Of a stretch of DNA of 56,034 bases, positions 4,513 to 48,849 are shown one piece after another (the stretch's first letter is position 1; every line of letters starts with the position of its first letter). This DNA comes from a virus. A program made the translations under genes and the position numbers. The stretch spans positions 1 to 56,034 of the IMG/VR virus record IMGVR_UViG_3300033233_000048. One strand, given 5' to 3'. The notes under the pieces are model-generated. The model was not told the origin of the DNA. It did not search any database and worked only from the letters and a program-made list of their open reading frames with translations.

Positions 4513-4786
4513 GAAAGGATACAAGGCAGTTCTGTTCTCACCAGATGGTGATTGGGTAGTTGATCACAGATATCAGACTGTGGAACAGGTTCTAGAAGCG
4601 GTTGATAATCAAGGAAGTAGATGGATTTTCTATCCATTCCCTGTAGTTATACGTGATAGAAGTCAGCTCACTACACATAGACAGCGTATAGTGAGTGCTC
4701 CAGGATTGTCTTGGTTCGTTGGAAAATCAATCAATACTCTTAGTAGACATCTCCAGGAACATGGGTGGGAGTATCTCCACGACTAG
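4496..4786 (+). CDS. Hypothetical protein
   Basis: A 96-residue product; ATG 4496 and in-frame ATG 4502 are both possible. It has an N-terminal KAVLFSPDGDW segment and no catalytic motif I recognise. It lies immediately upstream of the RuvB-like ATPase gene. Confidence 0.55.
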   Translation: MIMSGRKGYKAVLFSPDGDWVVDHRYQTVEQVLEAVDNQGSRWIFYPFPVVIRDRSQLTTHRQRIVSAPGLSWFVGKSINTLSRHLQEHGWEYLHD

Positions 4787-4800
4787 AAGGGTTGGCCTCT

Positions 4801-5763
4801 GTGAAACAAGATCAACTCAGACCGACTCGACTCATCGAGTACATTGGGCAAGATCAAATCAAAGATCAACTTGGAGCGGCACTGGCTTCAGCAAAGGCTA
4901 GAGATACGGCACTACCGCATGTTCTTCTGAGTGGTCCACCTGGATTGGGGAAGACAACACTCGCAATGATCATCGCCAATGAAATGGGATGGACGATGAT
5001 TGACTTGATTGGATCGACGGCTGGTAATCCAACAGCGTTGACGAAGAAGATCATGCGAATCAAGCCAGAGACTATGTTCTTTATTGATGAGATTCATGCT
5101 TTGAGGAAACCAGTTCAGGAGATTCTATATCCAGTTCTTGAAGATAATCGGGTACTTTTTCGTATAGGATCAGCATCCGCTGAAGTAGATCTACCGCCAG
5201 TAACTATCATGGGCGCAACTACAGATCTAGGTAAACTGACTCAACCATTCATTGACAGATTTCAACTTCAGTTTGAGTTGTCATTCTATCATGTGGATGA
5301 ACTAATAGAACTGGGAGTTATAAGCTCCGGGAAACTGGGGCTGAATCTGCCAGAAGAGGCTATTGAGGTAATCGCTGAGAGAAGTCGTGGAACTCCGCGA
5401 TACGTCAATAACTATCTCAAATGGGTTCGTGATTTCAAGATCTTTGAGAAGGTAGAAACTGTCGATCGCAAGTTCGTTCAACATGTAATGAGGAGAAAAC
5501 TAAGGATTGACAATCTTGGCCTTAGACCATTAGATCGTAACTATCTGAGAACGTTGGCTGACTCACCTACTCCTGTGGGAGTAGAGGCGATAGGATCAAA
5601 ACTGAGACAAGCTGTAGTGACATTGGAGAACACGGTAGAGCCGTTCTTGCTTTATGCGGGATTAGCAGTGAGGATAAGAAATGGACGAGCAATCACAGAA
5701 GCCGGAAGAGCCCACCTTGACTCCCTCCATCGGAGTAGTTCGAGAAATCCTTCTCGAGCCTAA
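4801..5763 (+). CDS. ruvB: RuvB-like branch-migration AAA+ ATPase
   Basis: A 320-residue protein close in length and layout to bacterial RuvB (about 336). It begins with LRPTRLIEYIGQ, then Walker A GPPGLGKTT (45-53), Walker B FFIDEIHAL (D96-E97), sensor 1 GATTD (138-142), arginine finger DRF near 153, sensor 2 RGTPR, and a C-terminal winged helix (GVEAIGSKLR). RuvB drives Holliday junction migration with RuvA and RuvC, neither of which is seen here; the phage has endonuclease VII instead. GTG 4801 is preferred over ATG 4765, since it gives the RuvB N-terminus and avoids the overlap. Family assignment is strong; the partner is unknown. Confidence 0.9.
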   Translation: MKQDQLRPTRLIEYIGQDQIKDQLGAALASAKARDTALPHVLLSGPPGLGKTTLAMIIANEMGWTMIDLIGSTAGNPTALTKKIMRIKPETMFFIDEIHALRKPVQEILYPVLEDNRVLFRIGSASAEVDLPPVTIMGATTDLGKLTQPFIDRFQLQFELSFYHVDELIELGVISSGKLGLNLPEEAIEVIAERSRGTPRYVNNYLKWVRDFKIFEKVETVDRKFVQHVMRRKLRIDNLGLRPLDRNYLRTLADSPTPVGVEAIGSKLRQAVVTLENTVEPFLLYAGLAVRIRNGRAITEAGRAHLDSLHRSSSRNPSRA

Positions 5764-20067: not shown

Positions 20068-20082
20068 GTGACCAGTGGTCAC
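20068..20082. promoter_or_regulatory. 15-bp palindrome, possible operator
   Basis: GTGACCAGTGGTCAC is a perfect palindrome about one central base, lying between the virion gene and the glycosyltransferase fusion, 20 bases before its start. The loop is too short for an RNA hairpin, so protein binding is more likely. Confidence 0.4.
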
Positions 20083-20101
20083 TAGAAAGGAACTAGGCGG
20101 T

Positions 20102-25318: not shown

Positions 25319-27124
25319 ATGGCTAGAATCGGGCGAAGTTTTCCACAAAGTACAAGACTGCGACTGGCGCCGAAAGATACTGGGACAACCATTGTTCCGA
25401 CTTCTATTTCATCTCAAGAAGCGATTGGAACACCAGCATTTATTCTCACCAATACTGGTATTTCACCGTCAGCTGTTGGTTCAACTGAGGCTGTTGGTTC
25501 TCATACTCTTAAAGCCACAAATGTTATTTCTCCATCTGCAATAATCTCAGGCGAAACCTTAGGAACACCTGCACTTATCCTCAGTGGAATTTCTATTCTA
25601 CCAACCGGCGTTATTTCTACAGAAGCTGTAGGAACTCCAACTCTAGTTCTCACTGGTATCAGTATTCTACCAACTGAGATTGTAACAGACGAAGCAGTTG
25701 GTGCTCATACTCTTAAAGCCACAGCTACTATCTCTCCTTCGTCTATTAGTTCTGCAGAAGCGGCTGGTTCATCGACTCTTATCGCAGTTGCTTTTATTAT
25801 TCCAACTGCCATCTCAAGCGATGAAGCAGTTGGTTCACCCACTCTTGCAATCCCTATTCAAACTATTCAACCAACGGCGATTGCTTCAGCGGAAGTAATA
25901 GGTACTCCTTCTCTCATCCTTGCTAATATTAACATTCTACCATCGTCAATTGTTTCAGCCGAAGCGGTTGGAACATCCTCTCTTATTCTAACCAACATCA
26001 ATATTCTACCAACTTCTATTATTTCAAGTGAAGCGGTTGGTTCTCATTTACTTAAAGCTACTAATTCAATCCTACCATCAGCTATCAATTCAGCTGAAGC
26101 CACTGGAACGCCCTCATTAGTTCTCAGTGGTATCAATATTCTACCAACTGGGGTATCAACTGCGGAAGTAGTAGGTACTCCTAATCTTCTGGCAATCAAC
26201 ACAATTTTGCCAGTTGCTATAGCAAGTAATGAGGCATTAAGCGCCCCATCTCTAATTCTTGCTAACATCAATATTCTACCCACAGCAGTCTCATCTGCTG
26301 AGGCAATAGGCGCTCACGTTCTCAAGGCTACAGCAGTCATCTTACCAACTGCTATCAATTCAGCAGAGGTTTTTGGTTCTCTCAGATTCGACCCCCTGTG
26401 GCCTACTCCTATCTCATCAGATGAGCAGTTAGGAACTCCAACTTTAGTTGCTGGACAGCCTGGCGCTGTAAACATTCTACCAACGTCAGTTTTATCTGAA
26501 GAGGGAACTGGAACACCTTCCTTATTAGCTGGTGGAGTTAGTGTTCAAATATCAGCTATAGGATCAGCCGAAGCAGTTAGCACTCCGAGCTTAATTGCTA
26601 CAGCTAAGATTCTTCCAGTAGTTATCAATACTGAAGAATCTGTTTCCCAACCGGTTCTCTACAGTTCAGCGACTATTAGTCCCGCCTCTATTAATCCACA
26701 AGAGGTACTGGGTACTCCGTCTATCATCGTCGGGGCATCTATAATTCAACCAAGTGGAGTTAATAGCGCTGAAATTAGTGGCAATCCAATACTTGTACCA
26801 GGACAAGTTTCTGTTCTTCCAAATAGTATTACTGCAAGTGAACTATTTGGATTACCAATTCTTATCCCTACTAACACAATCATTGTAGAATCTGCTGCTT
26901 CAGCAGAAGCATTTGGTTTCCCGGTTCTATCACTCGGTGTTACTCGAATCATCGTGAACGGAATTCCATCAGATGAATCCTTCGGTACTCCGACACTTCC
27001 AGTTCTTATTGCAGGTTGGCGGTGGATAAATCGCAGTCCTGCCTGGAGAACTACTAAATCTAGAGGATGGAGTGAAGCGCAAGATTCTCTTGTCAAGACT
27101 CGAAGAAATGAAGGCGATAGCTAA
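25319..27124 (+). CDS. 24-repeat fibre-like protein (S-x-E-A-x-G-T-P repeats)
   Basis: A 601-residue protein made almost wholly of 24 tandem repeats of about 22-24 residues, each with the shape I-x-P-x-x-I-x-S-x-E-A-x-G-T-P-x-L, e.g. SAEAVGTS, STEAVGTP, SDESFGTP. Hydrophobic and Gly-Thr-Pro positions are strictly spaced, which suggests a beta-solenoid or fibre. Similar SAEAFG repeats occur in tail-region proteins of other phages. A unique C-terminal basic region (residues 565-601) may attach to the virion. It is coupled to the next gene. Confidence 0.7.
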   Translation: MARIGRSFPQSTRLRLAPKDTGTTIVPTSISSQEAIGTPAFILTNTGISPSAVGSTEAVGSHTLKATNVISPSAIISGETLGTPALILSGISILPTGVISTEAVGTPTLVLTGISILPTEIVTDEAVGAHTLKATATISPSSISSAEAAGSSTLIAVAFIIPTAISSDEAVGSPTLAIPIQTIQPTAIASAEVIGTPSLILANINILPSSIVSAEAVGTSSLILTNINILPTSIISSEAVGSHLLKATNSILPSAINSAEATGTPSLVLSGINILPTGVSTAEVVGTPNLLAINTILPVAIASNEALSAPSLILANINILPTAVSSAEAIGAHVLKATAVILPTAINSAEVFGSLRFDPLWPTPISSDEQLGTPTLVAGQPGAVNILPTSVLSEEGTGTPSLLAGGVSVQISAIGSAEAVSTPSLIATAKILPVVINTEESVSQPVLYSSATISPASINPQEVLGTPSIIVGASIIQPSGVNSAEISGNPILVPGQVSVLPNSITASELFGLPILIPTNTIIVESAASAEAFGFPVLSLGVTRIIVNGIPSDESFGTPTLPVLIAGWRWINRSPAWRTTKSRGWSEAQDSLVKTRRNEGDS

Positions 27125-33743: not shown

Positions 33744-36323
33744 ATGCCGATTACTACTTACAATGATGGATCTAAATACGGTGATGCTGATGCGATTTAT
33801 GGACGAATCTCTACAGATTTAGTGGTTGCTCAAAACAGTCAAGCCAGAGAAACTGGTTTGAAAGTTACTGTGATAGATGATAGATCGAATGCTTGGGAAT
33901 ATTTCATCGGTACTGATCTTAACGCCCGTGAATTATTCATCTCGACTAATAAGAACCCGCCTGCTGATAATCAGGGATATTGGTCTTATCGCCTTGGGGC
34001 TTCTATGATAAAGCTCAGTGGCGGTAAAATCATCCGTATTCGTAATGGAGATGGGTCACTGGGTGATCGACAAGTCTATGTTCAAGAGATTACCGACCCA
34101 ACGGTAGCTTCTCAATGGACGAGTTGGAGTCTTCTTTACAGTGGTAATCATTACGGGATTGCACTTCAGGAAGCTACATCAACAACCTATGATGTTTTCT
34201 CAGCGAAGTCTGATGGACTTTATAAGAACAATTCTAAGAAATGGGATAAAACTGGACTTATCGCTATTTATCCAGTTGTTGGACAGAAAGACGCATTATT
34301 CGTTCTGAGAGTTTCAACTGATCCTATTGAAGGCCCTCCCTACAGAGATCTCGATCTATTCTACACTGACAATATAGAGGTAACTGCACCTACAGCGGAT
34401 CCTGTCAATTATAGATGGTACCGTAATAGCATCTCTGCGATGAAACTAAGTGATGGTAGAGTTGCTAGAGTTCAAGCGATGGGGCTGTACCAATCACCCC
34501 GTGTTAGAAACAATGGTGATTCAATTACTGTCGCTTTCAATAAGGACGTTTCTACTAATATTCCAAGTGAACCACGATTAATTAGAGGTTTAGCTGGTCA
34601 AGTCGGCCACAATACAATCACTTGGCCCAAGTTATTTCAACTTTCTGATGGGTTTTATTATCTATTCTATTCAGAAACTCATGCGGATAATGACTACGAT
34701 GCTATTTCTAACTTCTTAACATCTCCAGCATGGCAACGTTCCAAGAATCTGTTACATTGGTCAGAACCTGTACCAGCTCCAATTGGCGGTGGGTGGGGCT
34801 TCGCTGGGGTTGTTGAAGCAAGTGGGTATGTATGGTTCGCTGGGAATGGGTCTGTTTACCGCCGCCCATCTACTTCAGTCTCCTATGATATCAGTAACTA
34901 CGTACCACAACTTCAATTCGATATCCCCAGAGATAATCAACCTGGAAATGGTAGTTTCCCTGTGGCAAATCTCGCTGGAATTAATGATACTATCCTCGGT
35001 TTAACAGATCGAAAAGTCAAGATTGAAGTTGGTATCAAAACTGCTACTGGATTGTTTGAGTTCGCTCAATTCAACGATTGGTGGGTCAGGAATGTATCGC
35101 GGCAAATTGATGGGGAAGCTCAGAGACTACAACTTGAGTTCGGTGATCTCTGGTTCAGATTAGAGAATCTACTTCGAGATACTTACAACTTTGTCGGTAA
35201 ACTTGACTGGCAAGATTGGGCGGAGGGAAAACGGAACAAGAAGTTTAACTATTATGGGGCTGGTTCAGCTATAGAAACTGCTGATTTCCGTTTGAAAACT
35301 AGTGGACTCATTCTTTATACTGGCTGGAAAGGTCATAACCCATTAACTGAAATTCAATTCAATGCTACTATCAGTGGTGATACGCCGGCTTTAGTTTATA
35401 GATACAAAGATTCTAAGAATTACTACAAAGCTGAATTAGATGGAACTAATCTTAATCTCATTAGAAAACGAGATGATGTTGATTCAACCTTAGCTACTGT
35501 AGCTGTAACGGCTGATTCGACCCCTAATATTCGTGTAGAAGTTATCTGGGCAATTCATAAGATCTATCTGAATGGTGTTCTAAAGATTACACATACAGAA
35601 ACTGTACCGGGAGCCGATCCTGGTTATGTAGGTTTTAGAGGCACTAAAGCCTATACTATTTCTAACTTCTTACTCACCGATTGGGAAACCGCATATACCA
35701 CTGAGGATCTTATTAGAGTCGCTCTTGCGATGGGTGATTATCATGATGCGAAAGTTGCTGGCGGTGGAGATAGACAGCTTGCTATCATCTGGGGTCCACA
35801 GACGGATATTCCATCCGCTGCTGATGGGTTACGTTTCTCTCTAGAATCAGCGAAACTTCAAATGATCTGGCGTGATGGATTTATTGAGGTTGGTAAGTTC
35901 ACAGATAAATCTATCGTTAAAACAATTCAAGATCGGATCATTAGTACAGAACATTCCGAAAGTGCTGATCGTAGAATTAATGTGGCTGTTATAGACGGGA
36001 ATGAGCACAGTTGGATTGAACTAGACGATGCTGATCTAATTCTTCGTAGTCGTGCTTTGAATGGTTATTTCGATTTGCCTGAGTTACTTGATCAATCAGC
36101 AGTCACAGCTAGAGCCCAAGAAGAAATCAGGCGTGGAAAACTAGGATCAGCCCCTGGTGGTTCAGTTGTTCTATTTTTAGATCTTTGGCGAATGGACGCC
36201 GTAACTTGGATTGATAATATCGGTAATTCAAAAGATGTACGGATCGAGGGGATGGTAGTAGATGTTAATCAAAGTAGTGAACCTCATCAACGAATGAACA
36301 TTGATACGAGTTTATTAGCATGA
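33744..36323 (+). CDS. Large tail-tip protein with propeller and jelly-roll domains
   Basis: An 859-residue protein; ATG 33744 is chosen over the earlier in-frame start because it follows the preceding stop. Residues 1-400 show repeated strand blocks with Ser/Asp-containing turns and WSEPVPAPIGGGW, like a sialidase-type beta propeller. About 500-660 resemble a LamG/concanavalin jelly roll (LILYTGWKGH, YYKAELDGTNL). The C-terminal third (DRRINVAVIDGNE) fits a tail hub. It likely binds or processes host surface glycans. Confidence 0.6.
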   Translation: MPITTYNDGSKYGDADAIYGRISTDLVVAQNSQARETGLKVTVIDDRSNAWEYFIGTDLNARELFISTNKNPPADNQGYWSYRLGASMIKLSGGKIIRIRNGDGSLGDRQVYVQEITDPTVASQWTSWSLLYSGNHYGIALQEATSTTYDVFSAKSDGLYKNNSKKWDKTGLIAIYPVVGQKDALFVLRVSTDPIEGPPYRDLDLFYTDNIEVTAPTADPVNYRWYRNSISAMKLSDGRVARVQAMGLYQSPRVRNNGDSITVAFNKDVSTNIPSEPRLIRGLAGQVGHNTITWPKLFQLSDGFYYLFYSETHADNDYDAISNFLTSPAWQRSKNLLHWSEPVPAPIGGGWGFAGVVEASGYVWFAGNGSVYRRPSTSVSYDISNYVPQLQFDIPRDNQPGNGSFPVANLAGINDTILGLTDRKVKIEVGIKTATGLFEFAQFNDWWVRNVSRQIDGEAQRLQLEFGDLWFRLENLLRDTYNFVGKLDWQDWAEGKRNKKFNYYGAGSAIETADFRLKTSGLILYTGWKGHNPLTEIQFNATISGDTPALVYRYKDSKNYYKAELDGTNLNLIRKRDDVDSTLATVAVTADSTPNIRVEVIWAIHKIYLNGVLKITHTETVPGADPGYVGFRGTKAYTISNFLLTDWETAYTTEDLIRVALAMGDYHDAKVAGGGDRQLAIIWGPQTDIPSAADGLRFSLESAKLQMIWRDGFIEVGKFTDKSIVKTIQDRIISTEHSESADRRINVAVIDGNEHSWIELDDADLILRSRALNGYFDLPELLDQSAVTARAQEEIRRGKLGSAPGGSVVLFLDLWRMDAVTWIDNIGNSKDVRIEGMVVDVNQSSEPHQRMNIDTSLLA

Positions 36324-36592
36324 AGCGGATAGTTAACCCTAATAGAAGATTACAAGAGATCAGCCAGACTCAAAATAGACAACGAGCTCATAGAGGATAT
36401 CTAGTAGAAAACTATGATGGGATTGGACAATACATACTCGTGGCATTATCTCGAGGTTCTACTGCTTCAGCATATAAAGCTAGAATAGCTTCTGGGGATT
36501 TTGGAACTGGACAGGTTATACCAGTTGGAACTCCAGTGATCGTTACCAGTATCAGAGGTCAGATAGAAATCTTATCAATGGGCGCTAAATGA
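36320..36592 (+). CDS. Small tail protein, tandem paralogue 1
   Basis: A 90-residue protein coupled in an ATGA overlap. The segment RGYLVENYDGIGQYILVALS to GQIEIL is almost the same as in the next gene, so it is a stand-alone copy of that gene's first domain, perhaps an OB-like fold. Probably a baseplate or fibre base component. Confidence 0.6.
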   Translation: MKRIVNPNRRLQEISQTQNRQRAHRGYLVENYDGIGQYILVALSRGSTASAYKARIASGDFGTGQVIPVGTPVIVTSIRGQIEILSMGAK

Positions 36593-37476
36593 AGACTCGA
36601 AAATCTATTCCTGAACTCCTTAAATTACCACAAAGAATTCATAGGGGGTATTTGGCTGAAGCCTATGATGGGATCGGCCAATATGTGATGGTTACTTTGA
36701 CGAGGGGTTCTACCTCAGCGGCGTATAAGGCTAGAATTGCCGCCGGAGATTTCGGGGGTGGAAGAACTTTCCCAGTTGGAACTCCAGTACCAGTCTTCTC
36801 TATTCGTGGTCAATTAGAAATTCTACTTGGTAATCTACCAGGTTGTTTCCCTAATGCTCGTGGAAAGGTCATCGATTCATTCAGTCGAGTAGAATCTAAC
36901 GGCTTAGGAATTTCTAATTGGGGCTCTACATGGGATGGAACAGGAACTTATGACAATGCTAGATTAACAGCAGATGGTAATAATGCCGTCTTTGATCGAA
37001 GTTTACCTGGTTACGTTGATACTAATTTATGGTATGATGATACTGTTAATCCAAAACTTGGATGGCCTCTACCGCAAGATATCTATTGGTTCTTAGAACA
37101 TGAAGGTCCAATCGATCCAGCTTATGGGTTGAATCTGAGATTCAGTAATACAGTATATGTAAGTTTTTTTAATAGAGCTTTTAGTCCACCTTTCTTCCCA
37201 GGCGCGCAAGTTAACTGGCAAGATTCGAGTTTTAATACCCATACTTATGATGACCCATTCAACTGGTCAATAACAAAATGGGCTTTTAGAATACAGATAG
37301 AATTAGATCAAGTTTCTTACAAACGTTGGGATAGTAGTCTACCTGAACCAGATTGGATGTCAGTACTCTCCGCCACTGGGATAGGAGATGAGTTACCTTT
37401 GGATTGGGAATTCTCTAGTAATGCTAAAGTAGCCGGGGAGATCTGGAAATGTGATTGTATGCAACTGGCCCAATAG
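36589..37476 (+). CDS. Tail protein, paralogue 2 fused to a carbohydrate-binding-like domain
   Basis: A 295-residue protein. Residues 1-85 are a paralogue of the preceding protein (RGYLAEAYDGIGQYVMVTLT). Residues 90-295 form a jelly-roll-like domain with FSRVESNGLGISNWGSTWDG and several Trp/Tyr pairs, typical of LamG or carbohydrate-binding folds. It is the last gene of the rightward structural operon and may be a receptor-binding protein. Confidence 0.6.
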   Translation: MKTRKSIPELLKLPQRIHRGYLAEAYDGIGQYVMVTLTRGSTSAAYKARIAAGDFGGGRTFPVGTPVPVFSIRGQLEILLGNLPGCFPNARGKVIDSFSRVESNGLGISNWGSTWDGTGTYDNARLTADGNNAVFDRSLPGYVDTNLWYDDTVNPKLGWPLPQDIYWFLEHEGPIDPAYGLNLRFSNTVYVSFFNRAFSPPFFPGAQVNWQDSSFNTHTYDDPFNWSITKWAFRIQIELDQVSYKRWDSSLPEPDWMSVLSATGIGDELPLDWEFSSNAKVAGEIWKCDCMQLAQ

Positions 37477-37487
37477 AATATCATAAT

Positions 37488-37817
37488 TTATGACCGAGGA
37501 AGCCGGACCTCCTGGACCTCCTCGATCCGGTCGAGTTCTGCCTCGGCTTGCTCGACTGTATGGATCAAGGCCACAACGCCGCCTGTGGCCTTGATCCTCT
37601 CCAAGTAATAAAGTTGCAGGCGAGTAGGTTTGCCAACTGCATCTCGTTTCACCTCGAATGCGCAGAAATGGCCGTGATAACACCCGAGAATATCGGGTAA
37701 TCCAGCCACCATGAATGGTGAACCATGCAACTTTATCCAGAAACCCCCCCTAGAACGAAGTCGTTCAAGTATCTTCTTGACGACTGTTCGTTCTAGAGGG
37801 GGTTTTCTGGTGTTCAC
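37488..37817 (-). CDS. VRR-NUC nuclease
   Basis: A 109-residue PD-(D/E)XK nuclease of the VRR-NUC family: HGSPFMVAGLPD (D42), AFEVKRD (E55, K57) and Q68 in TRLQLYY. Such phage enzymes cut branched or ends of DNA. GTG 37817 is used; it starts 5 bases after the tRNA and has no Shine-Dalgarno. Codons for about residues 4-26 also form the large inverted repeat at 37741-37806. It is the last gene of the leftward region, converging on the tail genes. Confidence 0.8.
   Translation of the reverse strand: MNTRKPPLERTVVKKILERLRSRGGFWIKLHGSPFMVAGLPDILGCYHGHFCAFEVKRDAVGKPTRLQLYYLERIKATGGVVALIHTVEQAEAELDRIEEVQEVRLPRS
37741..37806. repeat. Long inverted repeat inside the nuclease gene, possible bidirectional terminator
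   Basis: Arms 37741-37769 and 37776-37806 are complementary over about 28 bases with small bulges; the outer ends are A3C7 and G5T4. Read either way, a G/C-rich stem is followed by a short T-run, so it could end both the rightward tail operon and the leftward tRNA transcript. Its overlap with coding sequence is unusual. Confidence 0.65.
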
Positions 37818-37821
37818 TATA

Positions 37822-37905
37822 TGGTACCGGGAAAGGGATTCGAACCCTCACTCCTCGCGGAAACGGATTTTAAGTCCGCCGTGTCTGCCATTCCACCATC
37901 CCGGC
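37822..37905 (-). tRNA. tRNA-Leu (anticodon UAA)
   Basis: Read on the minus strand it gives a 7-bp acceptor (GCCGGGA with TCCCGGT), a D arm with GGTGGAATGGC, an anticodon stem GGACT/AATCC around CTTAAAA (anticodon TAA), a long variable arm typical of Leu tRNAs, a T arm GTTCGAATCC and an encoded CCA. It would help translate TTA codons, common in the AT-rich core genome. It lies 5 bases before the nuclease start. Confidence 0.95.
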
Positions 37906-40817: not shown

Positions 40818-40942
40818 GGTTCATACTTCCTGCATCCACAAACAGAACACCCAGTCTTCGTCGGTACTCCTATCTGCTTTCTCTCTGTATGCAAGTTCTT
40901 AGGATGACCGCACCACAGACAGTGGCCTCTGCCATGACTCAT
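40814..40942 (-). CDS. Mini zinc-ribbon protein (42 aa)
   Basis: A 42-residue frame starting in an ATGA overlap with the polymerase stop. It encodes CLWC (residues 8-11) and CSVCGC (32-37), a typical four-cysteine site. Its stop overlaps the -35 of the class II promoter. Function unknown. Confidence 0.55.
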   Translation of the reverse strand: MSHGRGHCLWCGHPKNLHTERKQIGVPTKTGCSVCGCRKYEP

Positions 40943-43350
40943 TTCTCACCCCAATGTTGAGATATAACTACTTCTGCTTCGATCGGAATTGTCGGTGAGA
41001 ATCCGAACAATCGCTTCAATGGCAGATTCTCCATCACCTGTTTAACTAACGTAGCTACTTCTTCTACAACATCTTCACGGGCTTCGAGTAGGACGGAGTC
41101 GTGTACATTCCCGATAATCCTGGCGGATCTTCGATCAGTAAGACGACTCGAGAGGATGACCATTGAGAGGATGGTGAGATCTGATGCGAAACCTTGAACA
41201 GGAGCATTGATAGCTTCTCTCTCAGCTTCCCCCTGAACCCCCTCATCTGTGGATAAAATGGTAGGAAGATGACGAATCCGTCCAATGGGACTTTGAACGA
41301 ATTGAAGGTTTCGAACGAGGCGCCGTTGACGATCATGCCAGGCCGGTAATCCTCGATATTGGTCAAAGAATGCTTGACGATAGGCTTTTGCTTCATCATC
41401 ACTTACCTTAATCTGGAATTTCTCATCGGCATAAGTTCTGAATTTTTTCCAGCCCATCCCATAAAGGAAGCCGAAGTTAACAGCCTTCGCCATCTTCCTT
41501 TCTTCCTTGGTGACTTCTGCCGGAGGCTTGTTCAGGACTTTAACTGCTGTTTCAAGGTGTGGATCACCGCCTGTAGTGAATGCATGCGTGAGTGCTGAGT
41601 CCCTGGAAAACATAGCAGCAATGCGGAGTTCGACTTGAGAAAAGTCAGCCTCAATGAATTTCCATCCTGGTCGACTCCCGATGATACTTCGAATGTATAT
41701 ATCCCTGGGCACCTGTTGCATATCTGATGATAAACGCCCGGTGACAGTTCCGGAGAGATTATAAGAGGTGTAAAGTCGTGGCTTGCGAGCAACTCCAATT
41801 CGAGCAAGCCAGTTTCGAGTATAGGTTGATTCATACTTCTGCCATTTTCTTAACTCCATTAATAGATCAACTGCTTCGTGTTTCTTTCGAAGCTGGAGGA
41901 GTACTGACTCCGCTGTGGAAGGTCTTCCAGATTTTGGTGATACAACGATAACTGGTAGTTTCAGATATTCAAAGAAAAACCAACCGAGGAAAACAACTGA
42001 ACGTAAGTTAGCGATTCCCTTCTTCTCTTCTGGTACAAATGAAAGAATCTTATCTTCAGTCTCTGCAATTATCTGTTTAATCTCAGTATGACGTTGACGA
42101 AGTCGTTCCATGTCCACAGGAAAACCGTTAGTTTCTAGATCAATGAACGCTCGACACGCCGGCATCATTAGTTTCGTGAAAAGACGGTGAAGTCTTGGTT
42201 GTTTCTTTAACTCTTCTCTGAACAGATGGTATAAACGGAGAGTGTAATCGGCATCTTTTCCATTGTAGATAGCGAGCCGAGTAAGTCCCGTAACAGAATT
42301 AAAACTGACCCCAGTTTCGTAATCATCAGCGCCAAGATAAGTTCTGGCAAGAGGTTTAAGTCCTCCAGGTCGATTTTCATCGAGGAGATGTGCGGCAAGT
42401 TTCGTGTCAAAGTGAGCATAGAGTTCTACTCCTTTAGCTGCCATCCATTGACAATCAAACTTGATGTTATGTCCAACCATTCGTTTCCCAGCCAGAGCCA
42501 CACTGAGTGCTTCGTAAACCCGATCAATGGGGATATCCCATTCAATTTCTGGGTGTTCAAGACCCACAACGTAAGATTTACCTGGTTCCCAGGAGAAGGC
42601 AGCGGTATGAATAACTCCGTCTGGTGCCCAAGGTTCAAGCCCTCCTCGGTCACGAGTCATCTCCTTTGTTCCAGTCTCAACATCGAATGAAATTGGTGTT
42701 TCCACAGAGGCTAATATTTGGCAGAACTTAGCTAGTCCCTTCGATGATCGGATAAGTGCAGTTTGAGTTTCCGGGCGCCGATCTTGTCCATTGACAAGGC
42801 GGACAAAGGACAGCAAGTCGGCCTTGAAGATGCCCTCATGCGCCGGATTTCTTAGGACGGCCGCTGGATGTATAGTAGCAAAGACTGTTCGCCCATTAAT
42901 CTGCTTAGCGATCCCTCGTTTAGACATAATTCCTGTGGAACCGGTTATCGCTTGGAGAGCGGCATTTCCCAGAAGAAGGATATATTGAGGATTAACAATA
43001 TCAAGTTCACGTTGCATGAAAGTTGCGCAAGTCTTGATCTCGGTCCTTGTCGGTGTCCGATTATCTGGCGGGCGACAGCGAACCGCATTGGTGATATAGA
43101 CAGAGGCTCTAGATAATCCGACTTCCGATAAAATCCTATCCAAATACTGGCCAGCGACCCCTGAAAATGGGCGTTCAATATCATCTTCCCGTGCACCTGG
43201 AGCCTCTCCAATCAACATGATCTTGTTTGGAACTGGGCCGTCACCTAGAAGACAGACAGTTCTTGCTTCTTTATGAAGTGAACAGAGAGTACAATTCTGA
43301 TCTCTGACTGGAAGCCAGACTAGTTCTCTTGCTTGTGGATTAAGTGTCAT
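40939..43350 (-). CDS. UDG (family 4) - DNA polymerase I fusion
   Basis: An 803-residue protein. Residues 1-200 are a family 4 uracil-DNA glycosylase: cysteines C20, C23, C92, C108 for the iron-sulphur cluster, GEAPGAREDD (48-57) and HPAAVLRNP (161-169). Then a 3'-5' exonuclease (FDVETG, D223/E225; GHNIKFDC). The palm follows with motif A FIEADFSQVELR near 570, motif B KMAKAVNFGFLYG near 621 and motif C GNVHDSVLLE near 748. It is the replicative polymerase; SPO1-like phages are known to carry a similar fusion. It lies next to dCMP deaminase. Confidence 0.93.
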   Translation of the reverse strand: MTLNPQARELVWLPVRDQNCTLCSLHKEARTVCLLGDGPVPNKIMLIGEAPGAREDDIERPFSGVAGQYLDRILSEVGLSRASVYITNAVRCRPPDNRTPTRTEIKTCATFMQRELDIVNPQYILLLGNAALQAITGSTGIMSKRGIAKQINGRTVFATIHPAAVLRNPAHEGIFKADLLSFVRLVNGQDRRPETQTALIRSSKGLAKFCQILASVETPISFDVETGTKEMTRDRGGLEPWAPDGVIHTAAFSWEPGKSYVVGLEHPEIEWDIPIDRVYEALSVALAGKRMVGHNIKFDCQWMAAKGVELYAHFDTKLAAHLLDENRPGGLKPLARTYLGADDYETGVSFNSVTGLTRLAIYNGKDADYTLRLYHLFREELKKQPRLHRLFTKLMMPACRAFIDLETNGFPVDMERLRQRHTEIKQIIAETEDKILSFVPEEKKGIANLRSVVFLGWFFFEYLKLPVIVVSPKSGRPSTAESVLLQLRKKHEAVDLLMELRKWQKYESTYTRNWLARIGVARKPRLYTSYNLSGTVTGRLSSDMQQVPRDIYIRSIIGSRPGWKFIEADFSQVELRIAAMFSRDSALTHAFTTGGDPHLETAVKVLNKPPAEVTKEERKMAKAVNFGFLYGMGWKKFRTYADEKFQIKVSDDEAKAYRQAFFDQYRGLPAWHDRQRRLVRNLQFVQSPIGRIRHLPTILSTDEGVQGEAEREAINAPVQGFASDLTILSMVILSSRLTDRRSARIIGNVHDSVLLEAREDVVEEVATLVKQVMENLPLKRLFGFSPTIPIEAEVVISQHWGEK

Positions 43351-43805
43351 ATTACTCTCACTTGTTCAGCTCCATCAGGAACAGGAATTTGCCAGATACC
43401 AATCCCGGCAGTGACGAGGAGTGCAAGTCCACTAGTATCTCTATATGGAGTTTCGAAATAAACTGCGATAATACCAGCATTAATAATGAGTTTAGCGCAT
43501 TCGAGACATGGTGAATGAGTACAGTAGAGTTTAGATCCATCAGTACTCGTTCCAGCCCTAGCAGCAAAAGAAATTGCATTCGCTTCGGCATGAACTGTTC
43601 TGGTGCATCCCCCATGATTACCAACTTCACATCCAACAGTTGTGCAATGAGGAAGTCCAGAAGGTGCTCCAACATATCCTGTTGAGATGATTCTTCCTTC
43701 TCTTGCAATTACAGCCCCTACTGAAGCCCGTTCACAGGTACCTCTGAGAGAGATGACTGTGGCAGTTCTCATTAACATTTCTTCTCTACTGATCCTAGAA
43801 GACAT
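43347..43805 (-). CDS. dCMP deaminase
   Basis: A 152-residue deoxycytidylate deaminase with VHAEANAI (H72, E74) and SPCLECAK (C100, C103) zinc-site motifs and an extra CTTVGCE site (C54, C59). It converts dCMP to dUMP. ATG 43805 is chosen since the longer frame extends over the TS-like gene. The product would feed dUMP to a synthase, though both neighbours lack the ThyA-type Asn. Confidence 0.9.
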   Translation of the reverse strand: MSSRISREEMLMRTATVISLRGTCERASVGAVIAREGRIISTGYVGAPSGLPHCTTVGCEVGNHGGCTRTVHAEANAISFAARAGTSTDGSKLYCTHSPCLECAKLIINAGIIAVYFETPYRDTSGLALLVTAGIGIWQIPVPDGAEQVRVI

Positions 43806-44493
43806 CAACCACATCTTTCTTATAAACGTGAAGAGAACCAATCCAATGCGTGAAAAATCCAGGTTGTATTTCTATAAGTTCTGCAATATATCGCTGCAGT
43901 TTGTGGGTAAGATACATATCATTCGCTAAGTGTGTGAAGTAATCTCCTGACCGCTGTAGATACGTGATATGGAGTTTTCTATTTCGCAAAGCGAACCAGT
44001 ACCCCAATGAACAAGGGACACGTCGTTGCCCGAGTTGTTCATTGTCCAACTCCCTCCACACTGGCATGAAAAGCTGGCGGGAATCTGGATGCTTCCGTAA
44101 TTCATCAACGATGGAAATGAGAGTTCCTTTCGAAGAATTCTGAAACTTTCGATATCTTTCTCCGTAAGTGTAACCGAAACCACGGTCTGCAAATTCCTGC
44201 CAGATTTCTGGCCTGAGACGCCAAGCGGATAGTGACTCATCATCCGGCCCCAATCCCTGTAATCTTTCTTCAAATTCAGCTTCGCACCAATCTACATTAG
44301 CAACGTTATACAGGTCAGTTAGATCTGGTTTGGTCACAGTATAGATCATATTCAGATATTCTTGGGTTTGATATTCTGGATCGTCCGCGATCTGTTTATC
44401 TTGCATCGTTTGTGGATGAACTTTCATACCGAGTTCAGCGATATCCCGTTTCAATTCATCAAGAGCCTCTGGGAAATTCCTATAGATTCTCAA
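43795..44493 (-). CDS. Thymidylate-synthase-fold enzyme, dCMP-type (hydroxymethylase-like)
   Basis: A 232-residue member of the ThyA superfamily. Catalytic Cys is C161 in RRVPCS; QRSGD (180-184) is the phosphate-binding motif; and HVY near the end matches the dUMP-binding H-x-Y. The distance from C161 to D192 is 31, the same as C146 to N177 in E. coli ThyA and C148 to D179 in T4 dCMP hydroxymethylase; Asp there is the cytosine-type residue. So dCMP hydroxymethylation or methylation is predicted. TTG 44493 has GGGGAGG upstream. Confidence 0.78.
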   Translation of the reverse strand: MRIYRNFPEALDELKRDIAELGMKVHPQTMQDKQIADDPEYQTQEYLNMIYTVTKPDLTDLYNVANVDWCEAEFEERLQGLGPDDESLSAWRLRPEIWQEFADRGFGYTYGERYRKFQNSSKGTLISIVDELRKHPDSRQLFMPVWRELDNEQLGQRRVPCSLGYWFALRNRKLHITYLQRSGDYFTHLANDMYLTHKLQRYIAELIEIQPGFFTHWIGSLHVYKKDVVDVF

Positions 44494-45371
44494 ATCGTCG
44501 CCTCCCCGATGTCAAGAATTCCAGACCCACGTTTACCTTCACCTGTTAAAACAAGAGTAGAAGCTTGTTGCGAAGTAAGTTTGCGATTAACTCTCCTATG
44601 TGTCGCCCACCCTTTTAGAACTAGATTCGCCACAGGGAAAGAACGGTACTCTCCAGCTTGTGCGTTCTCAAATTTCGTCTTCCATCTACGGGCAGCTCTC
44701 CATTTAATCTCTTCTTCTGGTCTATTCATATATTCATGATAGTATCTGACTGAATCACCGATTCTACCATCATGCTTCATAAATTCTTCGAGGCGTCCGA
44801 AGGTGTAGAGGGTAGCAACTGTTTCAACGGTTTTGATGATGAAGTTTGGGCAGTAGATCCGAAGCCTGATATCTTCCTGATCAATGCCCATACGTTCAGC
44901 AAGTTTGCGAGCGACGAAATCAGAAAGCGCGTAATCGGCGACTCCTGAGAAACCGAGTGACTGGGCTCGTGTATAGAGAGTGAGAGTTGCAGGTTTAGGC
45001 TGCCGTCTGAAGCTGAAGCCGAGTAGACAGTTACCCCATTGGTGGACCGCCTTCTGACCCCCGAAATTTGGCGGAACGATTCTGAATGTCCAGAGGGCAT
45101 CATAGGTTCTCACATTCATGGCATTGTTCACCCAGGCGTGTAGAGTTTCTGGGTCAACATATTGCCCGGTAAACTTCGTCCATTTCGTCGGCGTCAAACC
45201 AATCTTACCAAGATCAAAGTCGAAAACAGCTGACTTGGCTTCCATCTGATTACCGAAAGAGTGAATAATGTTACGTTGATAATAGTCAATGTAACCTGGT
45301 TTATCTTCGAGCATACCAAAGTATGCCCCTTCCCACATAGCTTTGATATCAGGAAATTCTTCGATAATCAT
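44490..45371 (-). CDS. Second thymidylate-synthase-fold enzyme, divergent
   Basis: A 293-residue protein. Although diverged, it keeps the TS core spacing: C115 in WGNCLLGF, R135 in LYTRAQ (20 on, as C146-R166 in ThyA) and D146 in GVADYAL (31 on, as Asn177). It thus seems a paralogue of the neighbour gene, again with Asp. The C-terminal 120 residues are basic with no known match. The two genes share a TTGA junction and could act together. Confidence 0.6.
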   Translation of the reverse strand: MIIEEFPDIKAMWEGAYFGMLEDKPGYIDYYQRNIIHSFGNQMEAKSAVFDFDLGKIGLTPTKWTKFTGQYVDPETLHAWVNNAMNVRTYDALWTFRIVPPNFGGQKAVHQWGNCLLGFSFRRQPKPATLTLYTRAQSLGFSGVADYALSDFVARKLAERMGIDQEDIRLRIYCPNFIIKTVETVATLYTFGRLEEFMKHDGRIGDSVRYYHEYMNRPEEEIKWRAARRWKTKFENAQAGEYRSFPVANLVLKGWATHRRVNRKLTSQQASTLVLTGEGKRGSGILDIGEATI

Positions 45372-45625
45372 CCGCGATCAGAGTCTAAATTAGCTTCACG
45401 ACGACGCTCATCTTCAATTCTATTACACTGCATCACCATCGAGTCAATGAATTCATTTGGTCTGATTACACCTGTCAGATAAAGTAAGTTGAGGATTACC
45501 GAAATCTCAGCTCGAAGTACAGTTGCTTCTCCATATTTTCCAACTAATTCATCTCGATTGACAGACTTCCGATACATCTCGCTCTGTGGCATTGGAACCC
45601 AAATCTTGCGTTTATCAATACTCAT
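45368..45625 (-). CDS. Hypothetical protein
   Basis: An 85-residue protein, probably helical, with a charged C-terminus (DERRREANLDSDRG). It is coupled to the TS-like gene by a short overlap and follows the dUTPase by TAG-ATG. Genomic context suggests nucleotide metabolism; sequence gives no function. Confidence 0.6.
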   Translation of the reverse strand: MSIDKRKIWVPMPQSEMYRKSVNRDELVGKYGEATVLRAEISVILNLLYLTGVIRPNEFIDSMVMQCNRIEDERRREANLDSDRG

Positions 45626-46069
45626 CTAGTAGTTACTCTCCTGTCGGAACTTATTGACTTCGGACTTCTTGAAGTAGAGTTTGTAAACCATCTCAGCGTC
45701 TAGTCCGACGATCAGGCAGAGTCTAACGAAAAAGTGGAGTGCATCCATCAACTCTTCGTAGAAGTGGGCTTGATCTGTCAAGACATGAGTTGTCTTCCAT
45801 GGCTTATTCTTCAAGCAGTTAGTTGCTTCGCTGATCTCTTCAATCATACGATAAGCGGCATCTTTGATATACCACTGAGAGACTGGATCATCCAGATCTA
45901 CATCAAGTCCCCTGTGGAGAGTATATCCATTAGCGATTTCAATTTCATCATACTTCCCCTCAAGTTCCTTCTGACGCTCAAAGATAGCTTCAAACATATC
46001 TCTAATACGGACAGGACCTGACCAAGTCTCAGGAGCTTCAGTTTTGATATCGTTAATGTTCACTGACAA
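45626..46069 (-). CDS. Dimeric dUTPase (MazG-like all-alpha)
   Basis: A 147-residue all-helical protein with E78-x-x-E81 and E106-x-x-D109, the EXXE-EXXD metal site of all-alpha NTP pyrophosphatases, plus KNKPWKTT and the C-terminal YFKKSEVNKFRQ of dimeric dUTPases. It hydrolyses dUTP to dUMP, keeping uracil out of DNA; this suits the UDG-polymerase. TTG 46069 or GTG 46063 may be the start. Confidence 0.82.
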   Translation of the reverse strand: MSVNINDIKTEAPETWSGPVRIRDMFEAIFERQKELEGKYDEIEIANGYTLHRGLDVDLDDPVSQWYIKDAAYRMIEEISEATNCLKNKPWKTTHVLTDQAHFYEELMDALHFFVRLCLIVGLDAEMVYKLYFKKSEVNKFRQESNY

Positions 46070-46266
46070 TTCCGACAGAGGTAATAATTGGATACTGTTT
46101 CTTGGAACTCAAGCGGATTATGAGATTTAACCGGTTCCATTCGACGACCACATTTAGTGATGGCTGCATCTTCAATGAATGATTCTACTAGATGCCAAAA
46201 AGTAATTTGGCGTCTCTTACTTCCATAAGCAGTAATCCGACAAACCCATTGTCCGATGTTTGGCAT
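46060..46266 (-). CDS. Hypothetical protein with C-terminal Cys
   Basis: A 68-residue protein when read from ATG 46266, coupled to the previous stop by TAATG; an earlier in-frame start would overlap the RlpA-like gene. It is basic in the middle (GSKRRQITFWH) with Cys residues late, ending CRNCQ, compatible with a zinc site. No family is recognised. Confidence 0.55.
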   Translation of the reverse strand: MPNIGQWVCRITAYGSKRRQITFWHLVESFIEDAAITKCGRRMEPVKSHNPLEFQETVSNYYLCRNCQ

Positions 46267-46631
46267 TATCTTCCTAACCTCCAGTAGATCGGCCCGGTAA
46301 AACAATGTTGGAGATATATGCAGAGGCCGCCCGACAGATCCCAAATCCGGCCTTCAACGTAGGGACCTCGATCGATAACAGGAACCGTTTTCTGTTCTCC
46401 TTTCCATCTGAAAGTAACGAGAGTTCCACACGGTAGCGTCCGATGCGCGACTCCGAAGATCCTTTTGGTATAGGCTTGTCCACAAGCGGTGTGATTTCCG
46501 TAGAATCCAGGACCATACCACGAGATTTCTTTATCGTAGTTCCATCCTTTCTCAACTGAATGCTGGCTGAAGATTGTTGTGATAATAAGTAAGAGATATG
46601 TTATCCATTTAGAGATTTCATCTAATATCAC
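46266..46631 (-). CDS. RlpA-like double-psi beta-barrel protein, exported
   Basis: A 121-residue protein with an N-terminal hydrophobic segment (about 8-22, ITYLLLIITTIF), then the RlpA-type barrel: SWYGPGFYGNHTACGQAY, then GTLVTFRWKG and VPVIDRGPYVEGRIWDLS, including the conserved D-R-G-P motif and final D-L-S. RlpA is a lytic transglycosylase for glycan strands. Sitting in a nucleotide operon is unusual; it may help lysis or loosen the wall. GTG 46631 is used. Confidence 0.8.
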   Translation of the reverse strand: MILDEISKWITYLLLIITTIFSQHSVEKGWNYDKEISWYGPGFYGNHTACGQAYTKRIFGVAHRTLPCGTLVTFRWKGEQKTVPVIDRGPYVEGRIWDLSGGLCIYLQHCFTGPIYWRLGR

Positions 46632-47157
46632 CCTTCAAGTATCCTCGTACGATTTCAAATAGTTCTAGTATGTTTGAGTTCCATTTATAGTGAATGAACC
46701 TCTTCCCATACCAATTCATTTCTGAAGACATCACTTCATCGTAAAGTTCCACGAGTTGAATGAATCGATCTTCAACTCCTTCCATCTGATCTTTAGTTTT
46801 GATACCAAGGCGTAATTCATCAGTCGTCGGACGAACATAGATCAATAAGGCGGAGGTTCTAAGAAACCACAGGATATTGTTGATGAGTGGTGGTTCAGCA
46901 GTAATACGGCCCCTAAGTACTGGCCCATAAACGAGTTCTGAATAAAAGAATCTGTCATGGATAGGAATTATATCCGATTCTTCTCGATCCATTTGTTGGG
47001 GCCACCATACACTGAAATCCTGTTCTGGACCAAGTTCATTACGAATCAGCTCTAATTGTGGAAATCCTCTCATCAACTTATGAACAAGAGTAGTTTTTCC
47101 GCTACCATCCACTCCTTCAACAATGATTCTTTTCTCTTGTCTAAGTGGGCTGATCAA
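46618..47157 (-). CDS. dNMP / thymidylate kinase-like enzyme
   Basis: A 179-residue P-loop kinase: EGVDGSGKTTL (14-24), HDRFFYSELVYGP (about 67-79) as the substrate/DR motif, and a late ED-rich lid region. The HDR-F-Y-S motif resembles thymidylate and deoxynucleoside kinases. With the TS-like enzymes it may phosphorylate a modified dCMP or dTMP. TTG 47157 has GGGAGG and its own promoter just upstream. Confidence 0.8.
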   Translation of the reverse strand: MISPLRQEKRIIVEGVDGSGKTTLVHKLMRGFPQLELIRNELGPEQDFSVWWPQQMDREESDIIPIHDRFFYSELVYGPVLRGRITAEPPLINNILWFLRTSALLIYVRPTTDELRLGIKTKDQMEGVEDRFIQLVELYDEVMSSEMNWYGKRFIHYKWNSNILELFEIVRGYLKGDIR

Positions 47158-47213: not shown

Positions 47214-48692
47214 TCAGTTTTCAAGAAGAATATGGGGATTATGAAGTACAGCTTCTGCGATACTTCCCTTCTCTTTTAGTACTTTCAACACTACAGAATC
47301 TATAGTTCGTGGAGCCACGAGATGATAGTATGTAACTTTCCTAGTTTGACCGATACGATGAAGTCTGTCTTGCGCTTGCCAATAGTTTCCTGCATTATAG
47401 TCAAGACTGTAAAAGATACACACATCCGCCGGTGTAAGATCAATACCAAGGCTTCCCGCTTGAATTTGGCTAATGAATACTTTAAGACTACTATCTTCAT
47501 GGAATCTCTCTACTAAACTGTCTCTGTCCCGGGAGGGGACACTTCCAGACAGTATTGCATAGTCGATTTTACGCTCACCAAGTTTCTGTGCAATTCGATC
47601 AATATCCAATCTGAATCGAACAAAGATGACAACTTTGTGATCTTCTTCCAATAGATCGTCAACCAGATCCATGCAAGTATTAAGCTTAGAACTATCCAAG
47701 ATTCGAATTTGTCCTTCCACATCTTTAATGAACCCAGATGTAATCTGGGAAAGTCGAAGAAGTTTGACCAGAACGATTGCTGCGGTGGCATGAGTATCTT
47801 CAATCTCTACAATCATCTCTTCAGCCATCTTCTTATAGATTCCCTGTATTCTGTCTGGAAGTGTGATAGGGACAGTTTCAAACAGTTTAGGTGGGAGATC
47901 TAGACACTGTTCCTTCTTGATTCTGTATGAGTTTTCTCTGACTTTAGTGACAAGTTGTTTAAGATTACGGTAACCACGAAGTTGATATCTACCGAACCCA
48001 CCCCAGATCCCATAAGTGAATTTGAAATGGAACCAATTAGTTCCAAAAATTTCAGGCTTCATCGCACGGAACTGACCAAAGATATCTAGTGGTGATTTAG
48101 TGATCGCAGTTCCAGTCAGGAGCATCCGCATTCTTGCAGCTTGTCCAATACGAAATGCTGAACGACTCTGTTTAGAACTCGGACTCTTTAACCTGTGGGA
48201 CTCATCGAAAACAACAATATCTGGTTTCCAACGAATTAAGAGTTCTTCGATTGAAGGACCTCTAACAGGCGAGCGCCAGGTCCCTTCATAGTTGATAATA
48301 AGATAAGTGACATACTCATTGCTATGAGGATCTCGTTGGATTCTCCTGATGGCGGTAGCTCTACTCGAAGTAGAACCTTCGAGTCGGAAAATCCGAGTGG
48401 GCGCACCTGAATGTTGACGAATCTGTCTGGGCCACACTCCAAGAACAGAGAGTGGGGCAATAATGAGAACTCGTCTAACGTTATCATTGTAGAATCCGAT
48501 TCCTGCCCAATCAATTACAACTTTCGTCTTTCCTGTTCCCATCTCCATCAGGAGCCCACCACTCCCGTTCAAATCAAAAAGTTTCCGCAGGGCTTTCTTT
48601 TGATGGGAGAAAGGTTCAGTCTTATATGTATATTTAAGCTTATTCGGCCGCTCGAGGATCACGGTCCCCTTCTGTGTATGTTTGATTCTCAT
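47214..48692 (-). CDS. SNF2-type DEAD/DEAH helicase
   Basis: A 492-residue helicase. It has Q-like FSHQKKALRKLF, motif I MEMGTGKT, motif Ia LIIAPLSVLGVW, motif II VVFDESHRLK (DESH), motif III LLTGTAI, and C-terminal VIFVRFRLDI, GSLGIDLTPADVCIF and QDRLHRIGQTR, which define the SNF2 family (DRxHRxGQ). ATG 48692 avoids running over the zinc-ribbon gene before it. It likely remodels nucleoprotein at the replication fork or origin. Confidence 0.9.
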   Translation of the reverse strand: MRIKHTQKGTVILERPNKLKYTYKTEPFSHQKKALRKLFDLNGSGGLLMEMGTGKTKVVIDWAGIGFYNDNVRRVLIIAPLSVLGVWPRQIRQHSGAPTRIFRLEGSTSSRATAIRRIQRDPHSNEYVTYLIINYEGTWRSPVRGPSIEELLIRWKPDIVVFDESHRLKSPSSKQSRSAFRIGQAARMRMLLTGTAITKSPLDIFGQFRAMKPEIFGTNWFHFKFTYGIWGGFGRYQLRGYRNLKQLVTKVRENSYRIKKEQCLDLPPKLFETVPITLPDRIQGIYKKMAEEMIVEIEDTHATAAIVLVKLLRLSQITSGFIKDVEGQIRILDSSKLNTCMDLVDDLLEEDHKVVIFVRFRLDIDRIAQKLGERKIDYAILSGSVPSRDRDSLVERFHEDSSLKVFISQIQAGSLGIDLTPADVCIFYSLDYNAGNYWQAQDRLHRIGQTRKVTYYHLVAPRTIDSVVLKVLKEKGSIAEAVLHNPHILLEN

Positions 48693-48849
48693 TAAGGAAC
48701 TGTCGGCCACAGTATGGGATACCACCACTGGAAGATTTGTTGTGAATGAAACCCTGTTTAGTTTCTCCCTTTCCCCAAACCTTTTCTGGATCAGGGGGTT
48801 CTTTAACTTCTTGATCGCAATACAAACACCGTCGAATCTCATTTGCCAC
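48640..48849 (-). CDS. Small zinc-ribbon protein
   Basis: A 69-residue protein starting at GTG 48849, chosen for TTAGGAGAAG upstream. CLYC near residue 8 and PYCGRQ later form part of a zinc site. It overlaps the helicase start by 53 bases and the gene upstream by 11. Function unknown. Confidence 0.55.
   Translation of the reverse strand: MANEIRRCLYCDQEVKEPPDPEKVWGKGETKQGFIHNKSSSGGIPYCGRQFLNENQTYTEGDRDPRAAE

Follow-up and report, generated by a model that had tools for sequence, protein, structure and literature searches.

A Linked Pair of Thymidylate Synthase-Fold Proteins in a Phage Nucleotide Cassette as a Candidate Module for Cytosine-Nucleotide Modification

The Locus and Its Nucleotide Cassette

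The stretch of DNA analyzed here as a whole, referred to as the window, is a 56-kb tailed-phage record of 56,034 nucleotides, in which the terminase, portal, capsid, and tail genes are encoded on the plus strand. The replication and nucleotide cassette is on the minus strand and contains two adjacent genes, P0001 and P0002, for which an initial annotation had suggested a thymidylate synthase (TS) fold and a role in the synthesis of a modified dCMP. The cassette starts with an SNF2 helicase, followed by a kinase, small ORFs, a dUTPase_2/MazG-type pyrophosphohydrolase, an 85-aa ORF, and P0002, and continues with P0001, a dCMP deaminase, a Pol A fused to a uracil-DNA glycosylase (UDG), an HNH/EndoVII-like ORF, a Cas4-like nuclease, and a Sak4-like AAA protein. 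The main features are as follows.

47214..48842, minus strand: SNF2-type helicase, first gene of the cassette (sequence motifs; 58 loci)
46618..47157, minus strand: dNMP (thymidylate-type) kinase, a kinase-like P-loop protein (phrog_761, thymidylate kinase, E 1.2e-17; 39 loci)
45626..46069, minus strand: all-alpha dUTPase_2/MazG-type pyrophosphohydrolase, for dUTP or dCTP (PF08761 E 1.9e-9; phrog_12184 E 5.8e-33; 38 loci)
45368..45625, minus strand: 85-aa ORF between the pyrophosphohydrolase and P0002 (present in 9 cassette loci)
44490..45371, minus strand: P0002, divergent protein of predicted TS fold with a C-terminal helical extension (phrog_13667, unknown function, E 2.3e-24; no Pfam match)
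43795..44493, minus strand: P0001, D-type TS homologue, candidate dCMP C5-modifying enzyme (PF00303 E 2.6e-19; phrog_160 E 5.8e-33)
43347..43841, minus strand: dCMP deaminase (PF00383 E 1.3e-21; phrog_174 E 3.7e-48; relatives in 49 compared loci)
40939..43350, minus strand: family A DNA polymerase with a fused N-terminal UDG domain (PF00476 E 7e-83; PF03167 E 3e-31; polymerase relative in 63 loci)

The kinase, dCMP deaminase, and dUTPase noted initially beside the two genes were thus recovered with Pfam and PHROG profiles; the kinase is assigned by PHROG, its match to PF02223 (E 1.7e-4) being below the Pfam cut-off. The 85-aa ORF gave nothing above the Pfam cut-off and zero PHROG matches. The genes common across the compared loci are those for the polymerase, helicase, kinase, pyrophosphohydrolase, deaminase, and Cas4, and a helicase is annotated at the matching place in FF47, Huwbert, Mayweather, and Zuko. 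A megablast search of the window cassette against phages returned zero matches.

The cassette also contains a DPBB (RlpA-like) ORF (46266-46631, minus strand). Elsewhere in the window, the plus strand encodes a RuvB-like Holliday junction helicase (4765-5763), a 601-aa protein dominated by short SAEAVGTPTL...ILPT-type repeats (25319-27124), and two adjacent genes (36320-37476) with a paralogous N-terminal part (RGYL.E.YDGIGQY...) in common. A tRNA-Leu (TAA) gene (37822-37905, minus strand) lies between the structural and replication modules, adjoining a nuclease-like ORF (37488-37817).

The frames of P0001 and P0002 share 4 bases (TTGA), and a purine-rich stretch, GGGGAGGCG, lies upstream of the TTG start of P0001; the overlap suggests that the two genes are translationally coupled. 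The plus-strand frames at both genes are riddled with stops. For both proteins dN to close relatives is 0.13-0.39 while synonymous sites are near or at saturation, so that strong purifying selection acts on the pair.

P0001 Carries the Residues of a Cytosine-Acting TS

P0001 (232 aa) matches PF00303 with 69.8 bits against a cut-off of 24.3, placing it within the TS superfamily. The initial annotation had named C161, R181, and D192 in P0001 and C115, R135, and D146 in P0002, with spacings of 20 residues from Cys to Arg and 31 from Cys to Asp in both proteins; all of these were found at the positions it had given, on the minus strand, which it had left unspecified.

The family of P0001 includes 144 D-type sequences, that is, with Asp at the position of the TS residue Asn177, in all of which C161 and D192 co-occur; R181 is found in every readable one. 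Position 147 (S162 in P0001) is Ser or Thr in 144/144 of these, so that P0001 combines the two features of a cytosine-acting enzyme, Asp at 177 and a residue other than His at 147. R139 and S182 correspond to Arg126 and Ser167, and the pterin-contacting Asp is kept as D184 (Asp in 145 of the 148 readable family sequences, Glu in the others). Three residues before the catalytic Cys, R158 is Arg in 144/144 family sequences; the same position is occupied by the water-activating Asp in T4 gp42 and by Glu in AfhB. The C-terminus is short, ending 10 residues past the His207 equivalent (AfhB 14, T4 gp42 30, DLP4 TS 63).

Exchange of TS Asn177 to Asp switches the substrate from dUMP to dCMP, and Asp177 marks the TS genes of environmental phage contigs with modified cytosine, position 147 being the other top discriminating residue (PMC8670742). 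This position is Thr in T4 gp42, MilA, and AfhB. Arg126 and Ser167 were described as deoxyribose-type residues in the study of MilA (PMC5175136). Given the presence of Asp177, Ser/Thr147, R139, and S182, dCMP is probably the substrate of P0001.

The same cassette could be read as an ordinary supply of dTTP, with the D-type TS making 5-methyl-dCMP, from which the adjacent deaminase would yield dTMP, or accepting dUMP. The deaminase, dUTPase, and kinase that share the cassette are equally suited to such a supply, and an N-to-D mutant TS methylates dCMP (PMC8670742). However, ThyX is encoded by 11 of the 36 contigs carrying the pair, and an extra N-type TS-like gene is found in four loci (L004 from Huwbert, L076, L094, and L111; unusual in L076 and L111), so that dTMP synthesis is not a likely role for genes that co-occur with these enzymes. 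Dihydrofolate reductase (DHFR) was found in 0/37 records with the pair, P0001 is without the long tail for hydride transfer, and P0002 would be left unexplained; taken together, we regard dTTP supply as very unlikely.

The short tail and the lack of DHFR in the contigs also argue against methyl transfer by P0001 in general. As hosts encode their own DHFR, the DHFR argument is indirect. In DLP4 and PaMx28 the D-type TS has a DHFR gene close by; both phages are related to Xp12, in whose DNA 5-methylcytosine replaces all cytosine. A TS-like tail together with DHFR, which we chose as indirect marks of an Xp12-like dCMP methylase, is not found for P0001.

P0002 Is a Divergent Protein with a Predicted TS Fold

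P0002 encodes 293 aa. As the spacing of Cys, Arg, and Asp could arise by chance in a single protein, the residues were tested on relatives. Searches with tblastn identified 85 phage records, mainly of Gordonia, Mycobacterium, and Streptomyces phages, always with less than 60% identity and annotated as "hypothetical protein" in nearly all matches listed. By profile and alignment P0002 matches phrog_13667 and the actinophage hypothetical proteins Mayweather gp54, FF47 gp45, Zuko gp75, Shrew gp74, and Huwbert gp65, a group without functional annotation for which a TS fold is proposed here. The protein is highly diverged, as claimed initially: it matches no Pfam family, and its relatives are often just 20-25% identical. 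Among the genomes of 84,980 bacterial and archaeal species, a search with one conserved pattern, of limited sensitivity, gave 2 loci only as candidates for a cellular origin, both on contigs of metagenome-assembled genomes.

Across 127-128 relatives, Y71 (124/124), C115 (126/126), R135 (127/127), and D146 (127/127) are invariant while most other columns vary. These correspond in order to TS Tyr94, Cys146, Arg166, and Asn177, the last being Asp here, and Cys, Arg, and Asp correspond in spacing as well; the equivalence to Tyr94 is by order only. As these equivalents are unvarying in 127 relatives, P0002 is not a decayed copy.

AlphaFold2 was run with the family alignments of both proteins. Structure prediction, which had been proposed as a check on the initial annotation, gave a TS fold for both, with AfhB and MilA as the closest structures. 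The model of P0001 (pLDDT 83.8, pTM 0.85) matches AfhB (9iqu, Z 21.2) and MilA (Z 20.4), which are tied. The model of P0002 (pLDDT 83.7, pTM 0.80) aligns in VIA-align with AfhB at Z 15.2 (3.6 A over 184 residues), with MilA at Z 14.4, and with TS at Z of about 11, and the Foldseek matches in the PDB include T4 dCMP hydroxymethylase, AfhB, MilA, and TS, all matches listed belonging to the TS superfamily. By its model P0002 thus has the TS fold, and the fold and the Cys/Arg/Asp spacing of both proteins agree with those of dCMP-modifying enzymes.

Profile comparisons gave no match of P0002 to Pfam or to PDB sequences, and profile-profile comparison of the P0001 and P0002 families (hhalign) gave a probability of 0.8%. 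These null results leave homology with TS possible, because the folds match; an iterated HMM of the P0002 family gave a weak match to AfhB (18.5 bits) in which the Arg-Asp segment is aligned. The proposed link to TS is thus drawn from the predicted fold and the invariant residues, with no secure profile link.

The C-terminal extension noted initially is present, with a length of about 100 aa (residues ~194-293) rather than 120; it is mostly helical in the model, with low confidence for the last ~35 residues, and contains a nearly invariant R229 (119/128). On the folate side, the position of Asp169 is mostly Tyr, Glu, or Ser, and the family alignment shows no clear equivalent of Asp169 or of His207/Tyr209, which makes catalysis by P0002 itself uncertain. 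This loss would fit a noncatalytic subunit, serving structure or regulation, in which the conserved residues just bind nucleotide; so would the predicted secondary structure, from which the TS segment that lies between helix 2 and the phosphate-binding strand is gone. Binding alone would not require the nucleophilic Cys, which is nevertheless without exception in the family, and we consider a noncatalytic P0002 unlikely.

P0002 Occurs Only with a D-Type TS

To assess the codistribution of the two genes, we combined scans of viral contigs (60 loci) with a scan using the P0001 family (80 loci, a few of them on contigs of the first set). Of about 118 loci with a P0002-like gene, every intact one also encodes a D-type TS next to it, the sole type of exception being a contig cut at the end of the P0002-like gene (L026). 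In the five phage genomes inspected among the tblastn matches, the cassette around the P0002 relative is the same, and a gene annotated "thymidylate synthase" follows directly or one gene downstream. Conversely, about two dozen loci encode a D-type TS of the P0001 subfamily with no detectable P0002-like neighbor, and a search for the Cys-Arg-Asp spacing motif beside these solo genes found no hidden partner. The linkage of P0002 to the D-type TS is thus strict and one-directional, and, as the solo genes show, enzymes of the P0001 type can work without P0002.

Two P0002-like paralogues are encoded in L086, L087, and L099 and in the gut phages DP SC_2 and DP SC_6; in the latter two a D-type TS accompanies the paralogues, and DP SC_2 has a ThyX-like gene between its two P0002-like genes. 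The loci with two paralogues (L086, L087, L099, L007, L008, L089, L107, and L094) have them in tandem or on either side of the D-type TS. In L094 there are four TS-fold genes, one of them an N-type TS.

The solo D-type TS loci and the duplicated paralogues would suit a separation of the two activities, with P0001 alone modifying dCMP and P0002, catalytically separate, changing the modified dCMP further or working on DNA or triphosphate, which is one of the two forms of the module proposed below; the unvarying Tyr, Cys, Arg, and Asp of P0002 are likewise unlike those of a mere scaffold. The restriction of P0002 to the company of a D-type TS equally suits a heteromer, however, and its folate-side residues are mostly lost, and this separate second enzyme seems to us somewhat doubtful.

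Among 36 contigs with the pair, 0 have a carbamoyltransferase, and in the contigs tested no dedicated sugar transferase is generally linked to it; the step that usually follows in cytosine hypermodification is therefore missing. As no other modification gene is constantly linked, P0002 is the best candidate for what sets phages with the pair apart from phages whose D-type TS is solo.

A 998-aa protein encoded among the structural genes of the window (20075-23071, plus strand) has GT2, TPR, methyltransferase, and GT4-like regions. It was considered as a linked glycosyltransferase and rejected: among the contigs tested, its counterparts, open frames of comparable length (~1000 aa), are confined to the clade of the window itself (G030-G032).

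A Proposed Two-Component Module

TS-fold enzymes catalyze the first step of most known nucleotide-level pyrimidine modifications of phages, and the characterized ones are, to our knowledge, homodimers of one protein. On balance we slightly favor the view that P0001 and P0002 form, as a whole, the core of a phage two-component module for the modification of cytosine nucleotides. In this module Cys161 of P0001 would attack C6 of dCMP, the presumed substrate, with Arg181 and an Arg of the partner chain holding the phosphate; Asp192 would select and protonate the cytosine, and a group would join C5, most likely one containing oxygen (hydroxymethyl or hydroxy) rather than methyl. The neighboring kinase and the UDG-fused polymerase may bring what P0001 makes into DNA, and dCTP and dCMP would be drained by the pyrophosphohydrolase and the deaminase. 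P0002 would retain the core of covalent catalysis (Tyr, Cys, Arg, and Asp), with most folate-side residues lost, and would act only with the D-type TS, whether it joins that enzyme in a heteromer or follows it, acting on the product of P0001. Against this module stand the missing T4 hydroxymethylation signature of P0001, the missing transferases, the equal suitability of the deaminase, dUTPase, and kinase for a dTTP supply, and the lost folate-side residues of P0002.

The more specific proposal that the two proteins form a TS-fold system, as a heteromer or a two-step relay, making an undescribed cytosine modification, with P0002 as a catalytic family that is new to the TS superfamily and spread across many phages, is possible but tentative. 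The pathway to a modified dCMP suggested in the initial annotation is partly supported. The evidence bears out a TS fold for both proteins and the cytosine-type Asp, the linkage of P0002 is strict, and the separate ThyX or N-type TS genes in many of these phages fit a pathway acting on cytosine nucleotides better than dTMP synthesis. The open-access papers searched gave no description of a P0002-type TS-fold family with strict pairing. A second, constantly linked TS-fold family with a catalytic core would widen the TS superfamily and would predict modified DNA in a large number of cultured actinophages, Mycobacterium phage FF47 among them. Cytosine modification bears on restriction, Cas targeting, and phage engineering.

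Comparison with Known Systems

T4 gp42 and P0001 are alike in their TS fold, the Cys/Arg/Asp triad, and Asp in place of Asn, with Thr at position 147 in gp42. The pool enzymes of T4, gp56 (dCTPase) and gp1 (dNMP kinase), resemble the set encoded in the cassette of the window. T4 differs in having glucosyltransferases, and we know of no partner of the P0002 type in T4. Based on the ternary complex of gp42, Ser94-x-Tyr96 together with Asp145, three residues before the Cys, was proposed as a signature of hydroxymethylation (PMC6400193). P0001 differs from this signature, with Y108-T-Y110 (His or Tyr at 108 in the family) and R158; as the signature is absent, yet the pterin Asp D184 is kept, the product may be hydroxymethyl, hydroxy, or other.

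For P0001 as for P0002, the best structural match is AfhB (9iqu, 9iqc), a 5-hydroxy-dCMP synthase from RB69-like phages that is itself D-type with a short C-terminus. Synthesis of 5-hydroxy-dCMP by P0001 through flavin-dependent hydroxylation as in AfhB, and not folate-dependent hydroxymethylation, would accord with this rank among the structural matches of both models (within 1 Z of MilA), with the equally short C-terminus of P0001, and with the membership of 5-hodCMP synthase in the TS superfamily (PMC13390438). Set against these, P0001 keeps the pterin-contacting D184, which is Asn in AfhB, and a glycosyl cluster is not generally linked to the pair, and we regard an AfhB-like hydroxylation as quite improbable. 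Neither Pfam nor the family HMM identified a P0002-like gene among those tested in the immediate neighborhood of AfhB; the gene beside it, KAW3E185_00045, was rejected as P0002-like by family HMM comparison.

The CMP hydroxymethylase MilA (5jnh, 5b6d) likewise resembles both proteins in fold and has the cytosine-type Asp, and differs from P0001 in having Lys133'/Ala176 for ribose, where P0001 has Arg139/Ser182 for deoxyribose. The TS of Pamexvirus and Bosavirus (DLP4, PaMx28) are likewise D-type and encoded in a cassette with deaminase, pyrophosphohydrolase, helicase, polymerase, and Cas4. A 339-aa protein near the DLP4 TS was considered as P0002-like and rejected, and the nearby proteins tested are not P0002-like. 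Unlike P0001, the TS of DLP4 and PaMx28 have a full C-terminal tail and are accompanied by DHFR. Cytosine-type TS enzymes of phages are already known, and the surprising part of the present locus is the pairing with P0002.
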